Below are positions 42 to 12,999 of a DNA stretch of 18,415 nt, in pieces (position 1 is the first letter of the stretch; every line of letters starts with the position of its first letter). The translations under genes were made by a program, and so were the position numbers. The DNA comes from Bacillota bacterium (lineage in GTDB: Bacteria > Bacillota > Dethiobacteria > Dethiobacterales > Dethiobacteraceae). Location of the stretch: NCBI GenBank assembly GCA_024650095.1, contig JANKMV010000007.1, positions 1 through 18,415 of the forward strand, read 5' to 3'. The notes beneath the pieces were generated by a model, which was not told the origin of the DNA, did no database searches, and saw nothing but the letters and a program-made list of their open reading frames with translations.

Positions 42-1526
42 ATGACGGATTATTATATTAAAACTAAACGAGCATTTACTATTATTCGTACGTATGGATG
101 GTTGCTTACTGTACTAATCGCTATTGGAGGCTTGTGGCAGCCTAAATTGGGTCTGCTGGTTATATTAATTATGGCAGGATTAACAGTGACGGCATTTTTT
201 ACGGGTCGCTACTGGTGTGGAAATTTTTGTCCCCATGGTAGTTTATTCGATGTTATTTTGATGCCACTAAGTAAAAACAGGAAAATATCAAAACTATTAA
301 AATCCAAAGTGATGATCGGTGGCTTTTTCTTATTTTTTATGTTTAATTTTTCGAAAAAGGTTTTCAATGTGGCAAAGCTTTGGGGAAGCATGGCATTTCT
401 AGATCGGCTAGGGTTTGTATTTGTGACTACGTATTTGATGGTTTTGGTTGTAGGGGGAGTATTGGCCCTGTTTGTCAATGCGAGAACGTGGTGCCAGTTT
501 TGCCCTATGGGCAGTATACAGAAGATGTCGTACAGCTTGGGTAAGCTGTTGGGCGTAACAAAAAGAACTGATCGTAAAGTGACCATCGCCAGCCAGGCTC
601 AGTGCCATACCTGTGGTAAGTGTGCTCGAGTATGTCCGTTCCAATTAACGCCGTACCTTGAATTTACAGATAAAAACCAGTTTGATAACGTCAACTGCAT
701 TAAATGTTCTACCTGCGTAGAAAATTGCCCCGCTGGCATTTTATCCATCGCCACGGAGCGAGATGCCCTTGCCTTGAAAGAAAGTACTTCTCTTGAGGGG
801 TATGAAAATCGTCAAGCAATCCAAGCTCAAATTACTGAGATTATCGATCTTAACAAGGATACAAAAGAGTATACGTTTACCTTTATCTCGCCCCAGAAGG
901 TTGCATATCGGGCAGGTCAATTTATCCTACTCAAAATTGAAGATGAGCCCAAAAGTTATCGCGCCTATTCCATTTCGACCTATAATGACGATGGTAGTAA
1001 AGTCAGCGTCATCGTTAAAAAGGTTGATCAGGGATATGGAACCGACATTATCTTCACGCGCTTTACGGTGGGAGATATGGTCGAGCTTGAAGGTCCCATG
1101 GGTGAGGAACTTGTACCAGATCGGGAGGTAGAAAAGATTCTGTTTATCGGTAATGGCATCGGCATCACGCCCTTTGTTGGTCTTGCCAAAGACGTTTTAC
1201 TCAATCAACCTGTAGCAAGCCAAGTAAAGCTTCTTTCGGGCCAACGATTTGAGGAAGATTTCTTATATGATGACTACTTTAGACAGTTAGATGATCAATA
1301 TGAGCAGTTTGAATACATTTCCGTAGCATCCCGTGTTAAAAGCGATAAGTACCACAAGGGACATGTAACGGATGTACTAAAAGAGATGGATGTTGAGGGT
1401 TACAAAGTATATATGTGTGGGACAAAGAATATGATTATTGATAGTTATAATATTCTCATTGGCAAAGGAGTGAGAAAGGAAGATATTTTCTATGAAGGGG
1501 AAGAAAGAATTAAAGAAATAGCATGA
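42..1526 (+). CDS. NapH-like polyferredoxin membrane protein fused to FAD/NAD(P) reductase module
   Basis: This 494-residue protein probably moves electrons between a nicotinamide cofactor and iron-sulfur clusters at the cytoplasmic membrane. The N-terminal half (about 1-165) has hydrophobic segments and two NapH/NosR-type cysteine motifs, WCGNFCPHG (C59, C63) and WCQFCPMG (C151, C154). Two ferredoxin-type 4Fe-4S motifs follow: C188/C191/C194/C198 and C219/C222/C225/C229. The C-terminal half (about 255-494) is ferredoxin-NADP reductase-like, with a flavin-binding RAYSIST at 307-313, a nucleotide-binding GNGIGITPFVG at 370-380 and the late YMCG (C459). ATG 42 has a GGGAGGAAG ribosome site just upstream. 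Such modules more often occur as separate subunits. The physiological donor and acceptor cannot be read from the sequence, and no partner oxidoreductase lies downstream. Confidence 0.85.
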   Translation: MTDYYIKTKRAFTIIRTYGWLLTVLIAIGGLWQPKLGLLVILIMAGLTVTAFFTGRYWCGNFCPHGSLFDVILMPLSKNRKISKLLKSKVMIGGFFLFFMFNFSKKVFNVAKLWGSMAFLDRLGFVFVTTYLMVLVVGGVLALFVNARTWCQFCPMGSIQKMSYSLGKLLGVTKRTDRKVTIASQAQCHTCGKCARVCPFQLTPYLEFTDKNQFDNVNCIKCSTCVENCPAGILSIATERDALALKESTSLEGYENRQAIQAQITEIIDLNKDTKEYTFTFISPQKVAYRAGQFILLKIEDEPKSYRAYSISTYNDDGSKVSVIVKKVDQGYGTDIIFTRFTVGDMVELEGPMGEELVPDREVEKILFIGNGIGITPFVGLAKDVLLNQPVASQVKLLSGQRFEEDFLYDDYFRQLDDQYEQFEYISVASRVKSDKYHKGHVTDVLKEMDVEGYKVYMCGTKNMIIDSYNILIGKGVRKEDIFYEGEERIKEIA

Positions 1527-6640: not shown

Positions 6641-7972
6641 ATGTCCGAAAGTCGCGTTAGTTATCATGATTCTGTGGAAGAGATGTTGAAGAGAATCAGA
6701 GATGATGGGTTATCTAGTGTCTTCTCACGTTGGGAAGCGCAAGAAAAAATCCGCTGTAAGTTCTGTTTGGAAGGGGTAAGCTGCCAGTTGTGTACCCATG
6801 GTCCGTGCAGAATTAGTGAAAAAGCAGGTGCGGATAAGGGTGTTTGCGGAATCGGCCCCGATGCCATGGCGATGCGAAACTTCCTCATGAGAAACATCAT
6901 GGGTGCAGCAACCTATGGGCATCATGCCTTTGAAGCGTTTCGAACGCTTAAAGCTACAGGTGAGGGCAAAACATCGTTTACCATTACCGACACTGATAAA
7001 TTGAAGTGGATGTGTGAAAAAACAGGTATCAATACGAATCAAGATACCAATCAATTGGCCATTCAACTGGCAGAACTGCTAGATCGGGAATTGAAGATAA
7101 ATCCTGATGAAGAAAGTATTATGGTGGAAGCCTTTGCTCCGAAAAAGAGAAAACCATTATGGCGCAAGTTGAATCTTTATCCCGTAGGTATACAGCATGA
7201 GGTTGAAAATTGTATTGCAAGTTGTTTAACCAATGTGGATGGGGATTACGTCTCTTTAGCCAAAAAAGCCCTACGGTTGGGTCTTTCCACCATCTATACG
7301 GCACAAATTGGTTTGGAAATGACGCAAGATATTCTCTTTGGCACGCCGATGCCGCATGAAGTGGATGTGGACATGGGCATTATGGATCCAGACTATGTCA
7401 ACATTGCTTTTAACGGCCATCAACCGTGGGTGGGTGTGGCCACGCTACAGAAAGCGAAAAAAGAAGAATATCAAGCAATGGCAAGAAAAGCTGGCGCCAA
7501 GGGTCTGCGCATTGTGGGTTCCATCGAAACTGGCCAAGAGCTATTACAACGATTCGAAGTTGATGATGTGTTTGTCGGTCTGATGGGAAACTGGTTGGCG
7601 TTAGAGCCATTTTTAGCCACGGGTACGGTGGATGCTCTGGTGATGGAAGAAAACTGCTCACCTCCTGCTCTGGATCAATATGCTGAGAAGTATCAAGTTG
7701 CACTCATTAGTGTTAGCACCATTATTGGCGTGCCAGGCACAGAACATGAAATGCCTTACTACCCGGCTAAAGTAGATGAAATGGCAGAAAACTGTATTGA
7801 GATAGCCATAGAAAACTTTAAAAAGAGACATGGGGCAATAAAACCAATGGTGCCTCAGCATAAGAGAAAGGCCATTGCTGGGTTTTCCACAGAAGCCGTT
7901 TTGCAGGCTATTGGCAATGACTTGCTTTTGCCATGCCATGTATCGGGGAACCTTTCCACGAGCAAGGTATAA
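6641..7972 (+). CDS. cooS: Anaerobic CO dehydrogenase catalytic subunit, 3'-truncated fragment
   Basis: Full-length CooS (about 630 residues) oxidises CO at a Ni-Fe-S C-cluster and passes electrons through B and D clusters. This ORF has 443 residues. About 426 align from memory with CooS, including DILFGTP, the NGHQP histidine (H260), C339 and AGFSTEAV. It then ends in an unrelated tail (from about residue 427), so the distal C-cluster cysteines and the C-terminal domain are absent. The N-terminal cysteines are C39, C42, C48, C51, C56 and C69. The C39-x2-C42 spacing resembles the Desulfovibrio vulgaris enzyme with a [2Fe-2S] D-cluster. The usual GICCTG that supplies C-cluster Cys295 reads GSIETG (293-298), so that ligand is also missing. 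A GGAGG lies about 11 bases before ATG 6641. No cooC or cooF is adjacent. It cannot be a normal CO dehydrogenase as it stands. Confidence 0.85.
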   Translation: MSESRVSYHDSVEEMLKRIRDDGLSSVFSRWEAQEKIRCKFCLEGVSCQLCTHGPCRISEKAGADKGVCGIGPDAMAMRNFLMRNIMGAATYGHHAFEAFRTLKATGEGKTSFTITDTDKLKWMCEKTGINTNQDTNQLAIQLAELLDRELKINPDEESIMVEAFAPKKRKPLWRKLNLYPVGIQHEVENCIASCLTNVDGDYVSLAKKALRLGLSTIYTAQIGLEMTQDILFGTPMPHEVDVDMGIMDPDYVNIAFNGHQPWVGVATLQKAKKEEYQAMARKAGAKGLRIVGSIETGQELLQRFEVDDVFVGLMGNWLALEPFLATGTVDALVMEENCSPPALDQYAEKYQVALISVSTIIGVPGTEHEMPYYPAKVDEMAENCIEIAIENFKKRHGAIKPMVPQHKRKAIAGFSTEAVLQAIGNDLLLPCHVSGNLSTSKV

Positions 7973-8349: not shown

Positions 8350-8679
8350 CTACAGCCATTCTAGCTGGGAAACGTCAGATTGTAGAGCCTGCATTTCAAT
8401 AATTTTATATTTTGGTGTGGGTACGTCTCCAGGAAGAAACAATGTCTGCAGGAGGAGTCCAACCACGAGGACCATGGCACCGGCTACAACTGTCACGGTC
8501 GTTAAAGAAATCGTCACTTCTCTTTCCAGAAATCGCTGTACAGGTGACATGGTAAGTTCACTACGCTGCTGAGCAAGTAATTTCTCACGCAACGCATTAT
8601 CCATTGTTACCTCACTCACATGTTCAGCAAAGAGATTTTTGATCTGCTGGTCTAGCGAGTGTTCCTTATCCTTCATCAT
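8350..8679 (-). CDS. Putative single-pass anti-sigma factor
   Basis: A 109-residue protein with a charged, helical cytoplasmic N-terminus (about 1-52) and one strong membrane segment (about 55-80, ISLTTVTVVAGAMVLVVGLLL). A short tail of about 25 residues lies outside. This is the usual shape of a short membrane anti-sigma factor. It lacks the zinc-binding HxxxCxxC motif of the ZAS class, so identification rests on topology and position. Its ATG lies inside the 3' end of the sigma gene (overlap of 14 bases) with a GGGAG about 9 bases upstream, which implies coupled translation and matched amounts. It would hold the sigma factor at the membrane until a signal arrives. Confidence 0.7.
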   Translation of the reverse strand: MMKDKEHSLDQQIKNLFAEHVSEVTMDNALREKLLAQQRSELTMSPVQRFLEREVTISLTTVTVVAGAMVLVVGLLLQTLFLPGDVPTPKYKIIEMQALQSDVSQLEWL

Positions 8680-9232
8680 CTAAACCAACTCCCATCGTTA
8701 CTAACAGCGCTTTCATTTTTTCCCGTCCCCGCTGCAGTCTTGATTTAATACCCGACTCGCCCACATCCAGTACCTGTGCAATTTCCTTGACCTTCATTTC
8801 TTCATAATAATAGAGATAAAGAACGTCACGATATTTTAACGGTAAGGCACACATGGTATCTTTAACCAACCGCTTTTGCTCTTTCTCTTCGTAATCTTGC
8901 TGAGGCAATGGTCCTGTATCTTCCGCTTGGACATCCCAGAAGTACATAATCTTCTGCCACATCTTTGGTCTTATCTTATTTTTAGCCTTATTAAGGGCTA
9001 TTCTTGTCATCCATGTATCAAAGCTACTATCACCTCGAAAATTATGTACATTGGTATAAACGGCCAAAAAACTCTCCTGCACCACATCTTCAGCCAACTG
9101 TTGGTCCCCGACAACCATATAGGCCAAGCGGAGGAGCCTTTCCCCATAGGCGTCGACCAGTTCTTCGTAGGCAATTTGATCATTACTGCGTAATTTCTTA
9201 ATGGTCTCATCTAGCACCAGTGAATTTGCCAC
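8666..9232 (-). CDS. ECF-type RNA polymerase sigma factor
   Basis: An alternative sigma-70 factor with only regions 2 and 4. Region 2 is seen in the block starting YEELVDAYGERLLRLAYMVV and running through AEDVVQESFLAVY and FDTWMTRIALN. Region 4 is seen in ALPLKYRDVLYLYYYEEM and KEIAQVLDVGESGIKSRLQR, which is the -35-recognition HTH. The frame opens at GTG 9265. GTG 9232 has a GAGGAAGG site 7 bases upstream and begins closer to the conserved region, so I chose it (188 residues); 9265 would give 199 residues. The gene is first of three co-oriented genes with the anti-sigma-like and membrane repeat proteins. The upstream promoter looks like sigma-A, so autoregulation is not evident. Confidence 0.9.
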   Translation of the reverse strand: MANSLVLDETIKKLRSNDQIAYEELVDAYGERLLRLAYMVVGDQQLAEDVVQESFLAVYTNVHNFRGDSSFDTWMTRIALNKAKNKIRPKMWQKIMYFWDVQAEDTGPLPQQDYEEKEQKRLVKDTMCALPLKYRDVLYLYYYEEMKVKEIAQVLDVGESGIKSRLQRGREKMKALLVTMGVGLDDEG

Positions 9233-9311
9233 CCCTCCACCTTCCTCTCTCACTCTATTAGACACATGCTCACCCCAAATGGTCGCACAAAAAAAGCTAC
9301 TTTTGTTTAGT

Positions 9312-10064: not shown

Positions 10065-12722
10065 TTACTTATCTTTTTCTTCGCTAAAGAGTTTTTCTAT
10101 CTGCTCTTTACTCTCAGCCGATAGTGCATCCTGCAGGTGATTAGGATCTATTCTCTGTTTTTCCTGATAAGCCTGCATAACGTCCGCATTCGTTCTTTCA
10201 ATTTCTTCTTTTAGCTCTCTGGCGGATAAGATAGCACAGCCTGCGCCCCTGATTATCAACTGCTCCAATCCATCGGATGTGGCAACAGTTATCTGATATT
10301 TTTCCTGGTTATCATGGCTGAACTTTTCAATATAATGGTCTGCCGTTTGTGCTTCCCTGGTAAAGACCATATGAATATTATCATAGTCAATTATTTCCTC
10401 ATGTTGTCTCTGTACGCGATAAGCATCAAAGACAACGATAATCTGACATTTTCGCACACTTTGATATTTGCTGAGTACATCAAGTAGTTTTATTCTCGCT
10501 CCATCCAGATTGTCTTCTGCAAGGTCTTTCAATTCGGGCCAGGCAAAAATAATATTGTAGCCATCTACAAGAAGATATTCTTCTTTGCTATCCTTATGTT
10601 TACTTAAATGAGTAGTCGATCTATCATGACCTACGTTCATTGTGCTTTTTTTTTGCCAAACAGATTTTCTTCCTTGATTTGCATAGTAGGTTTGCTGAAA
10701 GATCCGCTCAATCTCTTCTGGATCAATCCGGCTCTTGCCGCTCAAAGAAGCCTCTTTCCCAACCGTTTCTTCCCAAGGGGTCTCCTTTTTTTGTAAGCGG
10801 CTTTCAACATGCATATAGTCCTCTACTTGATCCCACTCAATCAAAAAGCTGGTGCCTTTTTCACAGAATATCGAACCCGTGGGGTTTTCAACATCTTCTT
10901 CAGATTTGTATCCCCACATGGCGATGACTTCGCCCGAGTTATGGCAGGGCTCGTAGCCCAGCAGACTACAAAAAAGCCGGCCCTGACCGTTACTATAGGC
11001 CATTACATCTTGTTGATAATTCCTCATATTTACCACGGGAGCTTTCCCTGTAATGGATGCGATGTCGCCTACTAGCTGTGAAATCTGGCAGGTACCATGC
11101 ATTTTCTCAATGTCTGTCATGGCACGACCCACCATTTTTTCCGGTAACTCTAGCTGATAAGAGTAATACGGTTCTAGCAAAATAGATTCTGCTACCTTTA
11201 AACCCTGACGTACTGCACGGTAGGTGGCTTCCCTAAAGTCACCGCCCGCTGTATGCTTATTGTGCGCTCGCCCAGACACTAACGTAATTTTAAGATCTGT
11301 AATGGCTGAGCCTGTGAGCACACCTTTATGATCCTTTTCCTTTAAATGGGAGAGAATGAGCTTCTTCCAGCTTTTACCTAACACGGCCTCACGACAATCT
11401 TCCGCAAACTGCAGACCGCTTCCCCGCTCCCCGGGTTCTAGTAACAGATGAACCTCCGCGTAATGGCCTAAAGGTTCAAAGTGCCCTACTCCTTCTACAA
11501 CATTGGCAATCGTCTCTTTATAAACAATCTGGCCTGTATCAAATGTTACACTTATGCCAAAGCGGCTTTGGATAACACTTTGCAGAATCTCGGTTTGCAC
11601 CTCGCCCATCACCTTTAGCCGGATTTCCTCAAGTTGTTCATCCCAAACAAGCTGCAACTGTGGCTCTTCTTCCTCGAGTTGACGCAACTTCGGCATCATC
11701 ACTCGCGGGTCGCAGTCTGCGGGCAGCAAAATCCGATAGGTCAAGACAGGTTCCAATACAGGTGCATGTAAATCTGTCTCATCCCCCAAAGCCTCCCCCG
11801 GCTTTGTTTGCGTCAGGCCTGTTACTGCACAGACAACGCCCGCGTCTGCCTCGCTCACTGCTACGAATTTCTCTCCTGAGTAGATACGAATTTGCGTAAT
11901 CTTTTCTTGCCAAACTCCATTGGTCACAACGTCTCTTACCTTAAGTCTGCCACCGGTTATCTTCATATAGGTGAGGCGATTTCCCTGTTCGTCTCTGCCG
12001 ATTTTGAATATTTTAGCGCCAAATGTTTCCGGAAAGAGAGGCATCTCGGTATAATTCACAAGGCCTTGCATAAACGCCTCAATACCTTGCAATTTTAAAG
12101 CTGAACCAAAAAAGCACGGAAAGAACTTACGTGCCCTGAGCGCTACGCGAATTTGCGAGATTCCGATTTGTCCTGTTTCCAGATATTCTTCTAACAATAT
12201 TTCATCACACATGGCCACTTGCTCATAAAAATCTTCATCTTGACCTTGTCCGCAGACAATACAACTGTCAGCCAGCTGTTTTTTTAGTTCACTTAGTAAT
12301 TGTTCTTTATCCGTACCCATTTGGTCCATTTTATTAATAAATAGAAACACAGGTATGCGATAATGGGTAAGCAAACGCCATAGGGTTTTTGTATGCCCCT
12401 GCACACCATCTGCCCCGCTTATCACCAAAATGGCATAATCCAACACCTGGAGGGTTCGCTCCATTTCAGTGGAAAAGTCCACATGGCCCGGCGTATCCAG
12501 TAAGGTAATCTGCGTATCATCCACTTCAAACAGAGCCTGTTTAGAAAATATGGTAATCCCTCTTGCTTTTTCCAGCTCATCATTATCCAAGTAGGCGTCT
12601 TTATTGTCCACCCTACCCAATTTGCGTGTTTTACCACTCACATATAGCAGACTCTCAGATAGGGTTGTCTTGCCCGCATCTACATGGGCTAAGACGCCGA
12701 TGATCAATTTTTTCATAGCCAT
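10065..12722 (-). CDS. Tet(M)/EF-G-like ribosomal GTPase fused to a Rae1/YacP NYN endonuclease domain
   Basis: An 885-residue fusion. Residues 1 to about 640 are an EF-G-type translational GTPase of the ribosomal-protection superfamily: P-loop AHVDAGKT at 12-19, ARGITI at 54-59, DTPGH at 76-80, NKMD at 130-133, then EF-G domains II-V ending in the Tet(M)-like QQDVMAYSNGQGR. A linker (about 645-712) leads to a NYN/PIN-like domain (about 715-845) closely resembling Bacillus Rae1 (YacP): LLVDGYNII (D720), IVVFDAY (D766), TADHYIEKF (D795), VATSDGLEQ (D817) and SARELKEEIE. Rae1 cuts mRNA in the ribosomal A site, which is also where Tet(M)-type GTPases insert. The Tet(M) domain IV loop YYSPVSTPADF is here AHNKHTAGGDF, so tetracycline release is doubtful. 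ATG 12722 has AAGGA 7 bases upstream; the earlier in-frame codon at 12764 lies beyond that site. Likely a translation-surveillance factor (inference). Confidence 0.9.
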   Translation of the reverse strand: MAMKKLIIGVLAHVDAGKTTLSESLLYVSGKTRKLGRVDNKDAYLDNDELEKARGITIFSKQALFEVDDTQITLLDTPGHVDFSTEMERTLQVLDYAILVISGADGVQGHTKTLWRLLTHYRIPVFLFINKMDQMGTDKEQLLSELKKQLADSCIVCGQGQDEDFYEQVAMCDEILLEEYLETGQIGISQIRVALRARKFFPCFFGSALKLQGIEAFMQGLVNYTEMPLFPETFGAKIFKIGRDEQGNRLTYMKITGGRLKVRDVVTNGVWQEKITQIRIYSGEKFVAVSEADAGVVCAVTGLTQTKPGEALGDETDLHAPVLEPVLTYRILLPADCDPRVMMPKLRQLEEEEPQLQLVWDEQLEEIRLKVMGEVQTEILQSVIQSRFGISVTFDTGQIVYKETIANVVEGVGHFEPLGHYAEVHLLLEPGERGSGLQFAEDCREAVLGKSWKKLILSHLKEKDHKGVLTGSAITDLKITLVSGRAHNKHTAGGDFREATYRAVRQGLKVAESILLEPYYSYQLELPEKMVGRAMTDIEKMHGTCQISQLVGDIASITGKAPVVNMRNYQQDVMAYSNGQGRLFCSLLGYEPCHNSGEVIAMWGYKSEEDVENPTGSIFCEKGTSFLIEWDQVEDYMHVESRLQKKETPWEETVGKEASLSGKSRIDPEEIERIFQQTYYANQGRKSVWQKKSTMNVGHDRSTTHLSKHKDSKEEYLLVDGYNIIFAWPELKDLAEDNLDGARIKLLDVLSKYQSVRKCQIIVVFDAYRVQRQHEEIIDYDNIHMVFTREAQTADHYIEKFSHDNQEKYQITVATSDGLEQLIIRGAGCAILSARELKEEIERTNADVMQAYQEKQRIDPNHLQDALSAESKEQIEKLFSEEKDK

Positions 12723-12765
12723 TTTAAATTCCTTCGCTAACCTATGATTGTAAGAAAAGCGCACT

Positions 12766-12795
12766 TATTTAATTTCCTTAATATGCGCGTTTCAA
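12766..12795 (-). promoter_or_regulatory. Candidate promoter of the GTPase-NYN gene
   Basis: On the minus strand, TTGAAA (12795-12790), an 18-bp spacer and TAAATA (12771-12766) would give a leader of roughly 40 bases before ATG 12722. No long attenuator leader of the kind found upstream of tet(M) was recognised. Confidence 0.35.
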
Positions 12796-12999
12796 TACTG
12801 GCCACCTTAGCCACTTGCTAACTGCAAGTAATTTAATTCAGTTACCCGTGAAAATAGCCCACTTCAAAGGCTGAAAGGGGATTTAGAGTCTTATCATATG
12901 GCTATAGGTTCTTCACTTATGAGTGTTGTTCCTTCTTAAATGTTAACATTCATTATGCTAGTATCCCCATATTCCTAGCTTCCTCGCAACTCACAAATT

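Follow-up and report, generated by a model that had tools for sequence, protein, structure and literature searches.

The window analyzed here, an 18,415-nt stretch of DNA taken at its full length, carries on its minus strand a gene that joins an EF-G/Tet(M)-like GTPase to a NYN domain resembling the Bacillus ribonuclease Rae1 (YacP) (Table 1). The position assigned to this gene in the earlier note was right, and the strand is the minus strand; the plus-strand translation of the same interval is full of stops. The mechanical ORF begins at the upstream GTG. On sequence grounds, the ATG is the likelier start because it has GAAGGA 7 nt upstream, because relatives start similarly (the first possible start falls at most 14 residues from the P-loop motif in 21 of 28 fused relatives), and because the residue numbering used earlier fits it.

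Table 1. Features of the fused gene and its leader, in window coordinates.
Feature	Position	Strand	Description and basis
Fused gene	10065..12722	-	885 aa from ATG 12722 (likelier start); alternative GTG 12764 gives 899 aa
GAAGGA, ribosome-binding-site-like, before ATG 12722	12730..12735	-	read from sequence
GTP_EFTU GTP-binding domain	12048..12707	-	G motifs intact; Pfam E 5.8e-53; motifs in 26 fused proteins
EF-G domain II (EF-G_D2)	11787..12017	-	Pfam
EF-G domain III (EFG_III)	11541..11753	-	Pfam
EF-G domain IV (EFG_IV)	11190..11534	-	tip loop GRAHxKHTxGGDF; Pfam, alignment with solved TetO/TetM chains, relatives
EF-G domain V (EFG_C)	10938..11180	-	Pfam
C-terminal strands and short helix WDxVxxYMH	10815..10937	-	DSSP of predicted model; C-termini of 6 unfused relatives
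Flexible linker	10581..10814	-	about 77 residues, mostly pLDDT < 50; predicted model, linker comparison
NYN_YacP (Rae1-like) nuclease domain	10086..10574	-	D720/D766/D795/D817; Pfam, alignment, fold comparison
Copy of dispersed ~90-nt structured repeat in leader	12751..12849	-	does not belong to the design of the fused gene

Six Pfam families (GTP_EFTU, EF-G_D2, EFG_III, EFG_IV, EFG_C, and NYN_YacP) match this one frame, all over their cut-offs, which bears out both the proposed domain assignments and their union in a single protein. The fusion is neither a chance event nor an assembly error, since 28 of 398 genomes of the phylum and 9 of 62 of the class share the architecture. In the GTPase half, the motifs HVDAGKTT, RGITI, DTPGH, and NKMD are all present, as expected for the intact GTPase that had been described. 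The G-motif residues are invariant in 26 aligned fused proteins, including the histidine of DTPGH, except for the glycine of RGITI, which is nearly so; a 27th fused protein (L231) has NVDSGKTT in place of HVDAGKTT. The AF2 model of the whole fusion (pTM 0.53) shows a disordered linker and does not fix the position of the NYN domain. Measured between the tryptophan of the C-terminal helix and the beginning of the NYN match, the linkers of 88 fused proteins span 76 to 161 residues (median 89), a length that might allow action on a neighboring ribosome. They are otherwise variable, and a patch of the form E-x-I-(F/I/L)-x-x-T-(Y/F)-x-A-N recurs, a looser version of it appearing in 63 of the 88; from its sequence, this patch is possibly a docking motif.

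A homology search for the spread of the two-domain architecture, as the earlier note had proposed, found it to be widespread in Clostridia-like bacteria. Across the phylum, the 28 fused genomes fall into 12 families, and each was confirmed to have its NYN domain in the same ORF (GTPases were scored for the best 3 candidates per genome). Within the class, all 9 fusions come from the family of the window, where 19 genomes were searched, and a GTPase match at E 1e-80 is confined to these same 9 of the 62. The other 10 genomes of the family comprise one with a free NYN protein and nine with neither form; the function is therefore dispensable. A search of named genomes with the fused NYN profile gave at least 80 loci, whose number is no measure of frequency because the matches listed are ranked by likeness to the fused form. 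By a strict pattern, both motifs stand in one ORF in 68 of the 80 named loci, and L158 and L166 pass a looser pattern for both. In three loci (L106, L137, and L170) the halves lie in overlapping ORFs of different frames, likely by frameshift, to judge from the reading frames; three others (L107, L128, and L139) start at the edge of the available sequence, three (L113, L118, and L130) have a shortened ORF, and L156 is a free NYN protein with no fusion. Many of the fused named genomes are Lachnospiraceae (Lacrimispora, Hungatella, Roseburia, Blautia, and Anaerostipes), and others are Desulfosporosinus acididurans, Fusibacter, Anaerovorax, and Clostridium punense. A 2006 paper on NYN domains by Anantharaman and Aravind might mention the fusion.

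The nuclease half matches NYN_YacP with 179.8 bits (cut-off 24.6, E 5.6e-53) over profile positions 1 to 165 of 166, and its predicted structure, compared with PDB 5mq8 and 5mq9, has the Rae1 fold; its reading as a Rae1-like domain thus stands on both the Pfam match and the fold. Asp720, Asp766, Asp795, and Asp817, exactly the residues singled out before, are invariant in the 26 aligned fused proteins, are each present in all of 34 fused NYN domains, and align with Asp7, Asp53, Asp81, and Asp104 of B. subtilis YacP/Rae1, and the matching aspartates are present in 49 to 50 of 50 free NYN proteins. We take these four to be the catalytic residues.

The two kinds of NYN protein differ at the C terminus. 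Free Rae1 proteins, as represented by the B. subtilis protein (PDB 5mq8, 5mq9), are about 170 residues long and mostly end in an RR tail, which we defined from the 50 free proteins as an aromatic or aliphatic residue plus RR within the last 25 residues. This tail appears in 42 of the 50 free proteins versus 2 of the 34 fused ones, and WRR within the last 40 residues in 30 of 50 versus 0 of 34. Among 67 further named fused proteins, the first pattern occurs in 2 and WRR in none. The residue changed in the solved W164L mutant (5mq9) maps to the tryptophan of the RR tail. The NYN domain in the window is without this tail, lies at the C-terminal end of an 885-residue GTPase, and is encoded away from rlmB. 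Absence of the tail from 32 of 34 fused domains suggests that the NYN domain changed on fusion. The earlier note had made its reading depend on both the Rae1 aspartates and the ribosome-binding surface; the aspartates are there, whereas the tail of free Rae1 is gone and the surface may be partly lacking. Because the conserved tail is gone, the GTPase could have taken over ribosome docking from it, with the tail regarded as a putative docking element. An apparent acidic shift of the fused NYN domain (-5.9 versus -1.8 with the tail) was dropped, the core alone giving -5.1 versus -4.4 (p 0.26).

In the genomes that carry it, the fusion probably stands in for Rae1. The window's own genome (93% complete, 556 contigs) has a single NYN_YacP match, the fused one. 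Exactly one match is found in each of the 28 fused phylum genomes, inside the fused ORF, and in each of the 9 fused class genomes; likewise, 23 genomes were reached through named loci, and each of the 22 with the fusion has one match over the cut-off (G455 has a second that falls below it), while in the remaining genome, Clostridium sp. 12(A), the only NYN protein is a free one. These exclusion counts ignore kinship and include many genomes that are not closed, our own among them, and the three genome sets overlap (Desulfosporosinus acididurans, for example, is in two). NYN matches over the cut-off occur in 215 of the 398 phylum genomes, 187 of them without the fusion, and among the matches listed, each non-fused NYN ORF has at most 302 residues. 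Two matches in one genome were found in G262 and G353 (2 of 219 positive phylum genomes), neither of which is a fused genome.

Gene order places the fused copy outside the position of free rae1. The NYN ORF follows rlmB in all six free-Rae1 genomes compared (G236, G359, G115, G151, G043, and G035), with sigH next in five of them, and G043, a relative within the window's family, retains the free gene there. By contrast, the NYN ORF is near rlmB in 0 of 11 fused genomes. In nine of these (G000, G051, G050, G273, G417, G432, G067, G175, and G191) rlmB is followed by sigH some 5 to 290 nt on, and in the window's own genome the two are about 178 nt apart with no NYN ORF between them; the old rae1 slot is therefore empty, and the fused copy sits elsewhere. 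In the remaining two, G127 and G395, rlmB has other neighbors and the slot is uninformative. ThyX, RlmB, and SigH of the window's genome were confirmed by NCBIfam models, RlmB of the others by TIGR00186, and their sigH by eye.

To examine the origin of the fusion, we built trees of both halves. In an NYN tree of 85 rows (34 fused and 51 free, one free pair being the same gene, and with neither 16 partial duplicates nor any of the 80 named loci included), the fused domains lie on one side of a branch supported at 98/86 and found in 98% of bootstrap trees. Fused GTPases likewise lie on one side of a branch in the GTPase tree (SH-aLRT 94); when 13 named fused proteins and 2 plasmid rows were added, with the distant U_L228 as sole outgroup, support was 25. 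Two or three far rows were dropped from each extended GTPase tree. The sister group of the fused GTPases (100/99) is a clade of unfused proteins of about 650 residues (L219-L223, L227, and L280), which are 40 to 49% identical to the fusion over the matched stretch. These share a domain IV tip of similar type, GRAHxKHTxGGDF, but have no linker or NYN domain, their C termini lying near the helix after which the fusion continues into its linker. Five of the seven genomes with an unfused sister GTPase have a free NYN protein (G359, G236, G259, G337, and G462), and two (G407 and G365) have no NYN match. A pairing of GTPase and Rae1 outside the fusion is without statistical support, about half of all genomes having an NYN protein anyway.

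The modules can also be found apart. The free 173-residue NYN protein of Clostridium sp. 12(A) nests in the fused NYN clade, and an unfused GTPase of the ~650-residue sister clade is encoded elsewhere in that genome. In the NYN tree that includes the free L156, this row falls inside the fused clade, where the starred branches force two changes; F_L231 and S_L027 were dropped from this tree as long branches, the class free rows were thinned to every second and the named rows to every third, and its bootstrap is not settled. By this placement, Clostridium sp. 12(A) represents a natural and later split of a fused pair. A plasmid GTPase of Ligilactobacillus salivarius that is without an NYN domain falls inside the fused GTPases, again with starred branches that force two changes; in a later tree built without F_L231, the starred branches no longer force it there. 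Because this plasmid copy is without the nuclease, the GTPase can be kept alone. In the plasmid record (L252, 2405-4923) the unfused GTPase gene adjoins rpsN (S14) and the gene of a small "putative metal homeostasis protein," neighbors that possibly link it to zinc-poor ribosomes.

How would a GTPase and a nuclease work together on the ribosome? The A site is where domain IV of Tet(M) and EF-G inserts and also where Rae1 cuts mRNA. For a small nuclease such as Rae1, entry to that site means competing with tRNA and factors, which raises the question of how it gains access. The earlier note's reading, a single-protein machine for stalled or abnormal ribosomes, is partly supported but needs amending on this point: domain IV and a Rae1 module cannot both occupy one A site at once. 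Because they share it, they would have to act in sequence, with the GTPase first to clear or test the site and the tethered nuclease after it, or the NYN domain would reach another ribosome or mRNA outside it. In the reading that we prefer, the C terminus of a GTPase became attached to the cell's Rae1, after which the free rae1 gene disappeared. The GTP-bound body would dock at the factor site when the A site of a ribosome is vacant or holds the wrong occupant, and domain IV would sample the decoding center. GTP hydrolysis would then let domain IV exit, after which the NYN domain, held by its ~77-residue linker, would enter the vacated A site and cut the mRNA, so that mRNA decay could start and the ribosome be rescued. 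These three steps, and the trigger, are our inference. Taken together, the joining, the loss of free rae1, and a sequential A-site cycle have about an even chance of being correct, and the narrower proposal that the GTPase delivers or gates the nuclease by this cycle falls slightly short of that. More tentatively still, the whole GTPase clade may be a delivery partner of Rae1, fused in Lachnospiraceae, Desulfosporosinus-like, and related lineages and separate in others, which would amount to a two-module system of ribosome rescue and mRNA quality control, a GTP-gated A-site mRNase hidden under a tetracycline-resistance label. With Rae1 wired to an A-site GTPase, the free copy dropped, and the pair once split again, the question of A-site access becomes directly testable.

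A simpler possibility, which we consider rather unlikely, is that the GTPase serves only as a tether. The NYN domain would then be an ordinary Rae1 acting in any A site, the GTPase would have a job of its own in translocation or in drug or stress protection, and the fusion would give co-expression and a high local concentration with no gating. The long, variable linker is what such a tether would look like, and both the L. salivarius plasmid GTPase and the separate modules of Clostridium sp. 12(A) fit it, but the loss of the conserved Rae1 tail and the maintenance of one clade of fusions across 12 families speak against it.

The GTPase might instead bring the NYN domain to rRNA rather than mRNA, in ribosome biogenesis or in rRNA or tRNA processing. 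Free rae1 adjoins rlmB, which encodes a 23S rRNA methylase, and NYN/PIN nucleases elsewhere process stable RNA; yet Rae1 itself cuts mRNA, and the GTPase half is of the decoding-center type. We consider this role improbable.

The weakest alternative is that the protein protects ribosomes from tetracycline or another antibiotic and has acquired a nuclease, as some public annotation implies. The likeness to Tet(M) and Tet(O) consists of a five-domain GTPase with intact G motifs, and these proteins are among the best solved relatives by sequence (TetO, E 8.7e-75; EF-G, 2e-72; TetM, 5.7e-72). However, the fused protein reaches 427.8 bits with NCBIfam tet_protect (cut-off 775) and falls short of the model cut-offs for Tet(M), Tet(Q), and Otr(A) by a wide margin; because these are missed, it is not a tetracycline-resistance protein by curated standards, as far as sequence models define one. 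It has a nuclease besides, its domain IV tip GRAHxKHTxGGDF differs from the aligned TetO/TetM loop, and its identity to Tet(M)-sized proteins encoded in other genomes is about 31%, 644-residue proteins of this kind accompanying the fusion as a second copy in G127 and G191. Nor does it reach the EF-G model TIGR00484 (299.1 bits, cut-off 659.4), and its genome has another gene, on C196 with an open frame of 712 residues, that is EF-G-like by likeness rather than by a family model. Of 1314 plasmid records with any match, 2 show a match that covers 80% or more of the protein; eight of the 10 plasmid matches listed are named TetM/TetW/TetO/TetS, one of these eight being a fusion from Agathobacter rectalis. 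Antibiotic protection is thus highly improbable, the family names on plasmids and the TetO match notwithstanding, given the missed cut-offs, the different tip, and the second Tet(M)-sized copies. In the explanation that we prefer, the GTPase half comes from a clade that is Tet/EF-G-like yet separate from the true tetracycline-protection proteins. Since the gene is found in many Clostridia and some records call its relatives TetM/TetW/TetO/TetS, resistance surveys based on loose homology may miscount.

Elsewhere, the PADLOC anti-phage defense models gave 0 families for the fused protein at E 0.001, and a search of viral contigs found no relative. An origin from a phage or mobile element was considered and rejected. 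Phage records contain 12 NYN matches, without annotation among the 10 matches listed; one, in a fecal "Bacteriophage sp." (MT835514.1, H11), is 56% identical to the NYN domain of the window and is either host DNA or real cargo. Across 114 loci, no neighbor is conserved; the commonest cluster occurs in 17 loci at scattered positions, and the window is not among these 17. Within the window, an ORF at 6641-7972 (+) matches the anaerobic CO dehydrogenase catalytic subunit (TIGR01702, 539.7 bits, over cut-off), the match ending at profile position 419 of 621 with the C-terminal third missing. The ORF at 42-1526 (+) combines a NapH-like ferredoxin part with an NADH/FAD oxidoreductase part, and none of the NCBIfam models listed for it is over cut-off. 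At 8350-9265 (-), an ECF-type sigma factor precedes a short protein, perhaps its anti-sigma factor, in which one transmembrane stretch is apparent by eye and which has no Pfam match.

We also considered leader attenuation of the tet(M) type and rejected it, because the 201-nt leader folds no better than shuffled sequences (z -0.97) and one of the copies of a dispersed repeat occupies this stretch. The leader has a GCGC hairpin with a T run, 45 nt ahead of the region taken as the start. Of 112 loci, the window among them, 45 have terminator-like hairpins upstream, in most cases at a greater distance, as where a preceding gene ends, and in the relatives listed a promoter-like box, read by eye, is close to the gene. 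The ~90-nt structured repeat in the leader has 50 matches in the window's own genome (40 of 74 candidate places scored), 8 in G043, 1 in G053, and none in 16 other genomes of the family; no Rfam match was found in the window. Copies in G000 lie on C533, C214, C85, C388, and others, some in tandem at about 92 to 100 nt. RNAalifold on the raw alignment gave only -2.7, and in 30 aligned copies such paired segments as CA-CTTGC/GCAAG-TG and CG-CTTGC/GCAAG-CG, together with AAAAGCGC/GCGCTTTT and AAGGCGC/GCGCCTT, covary by eye.
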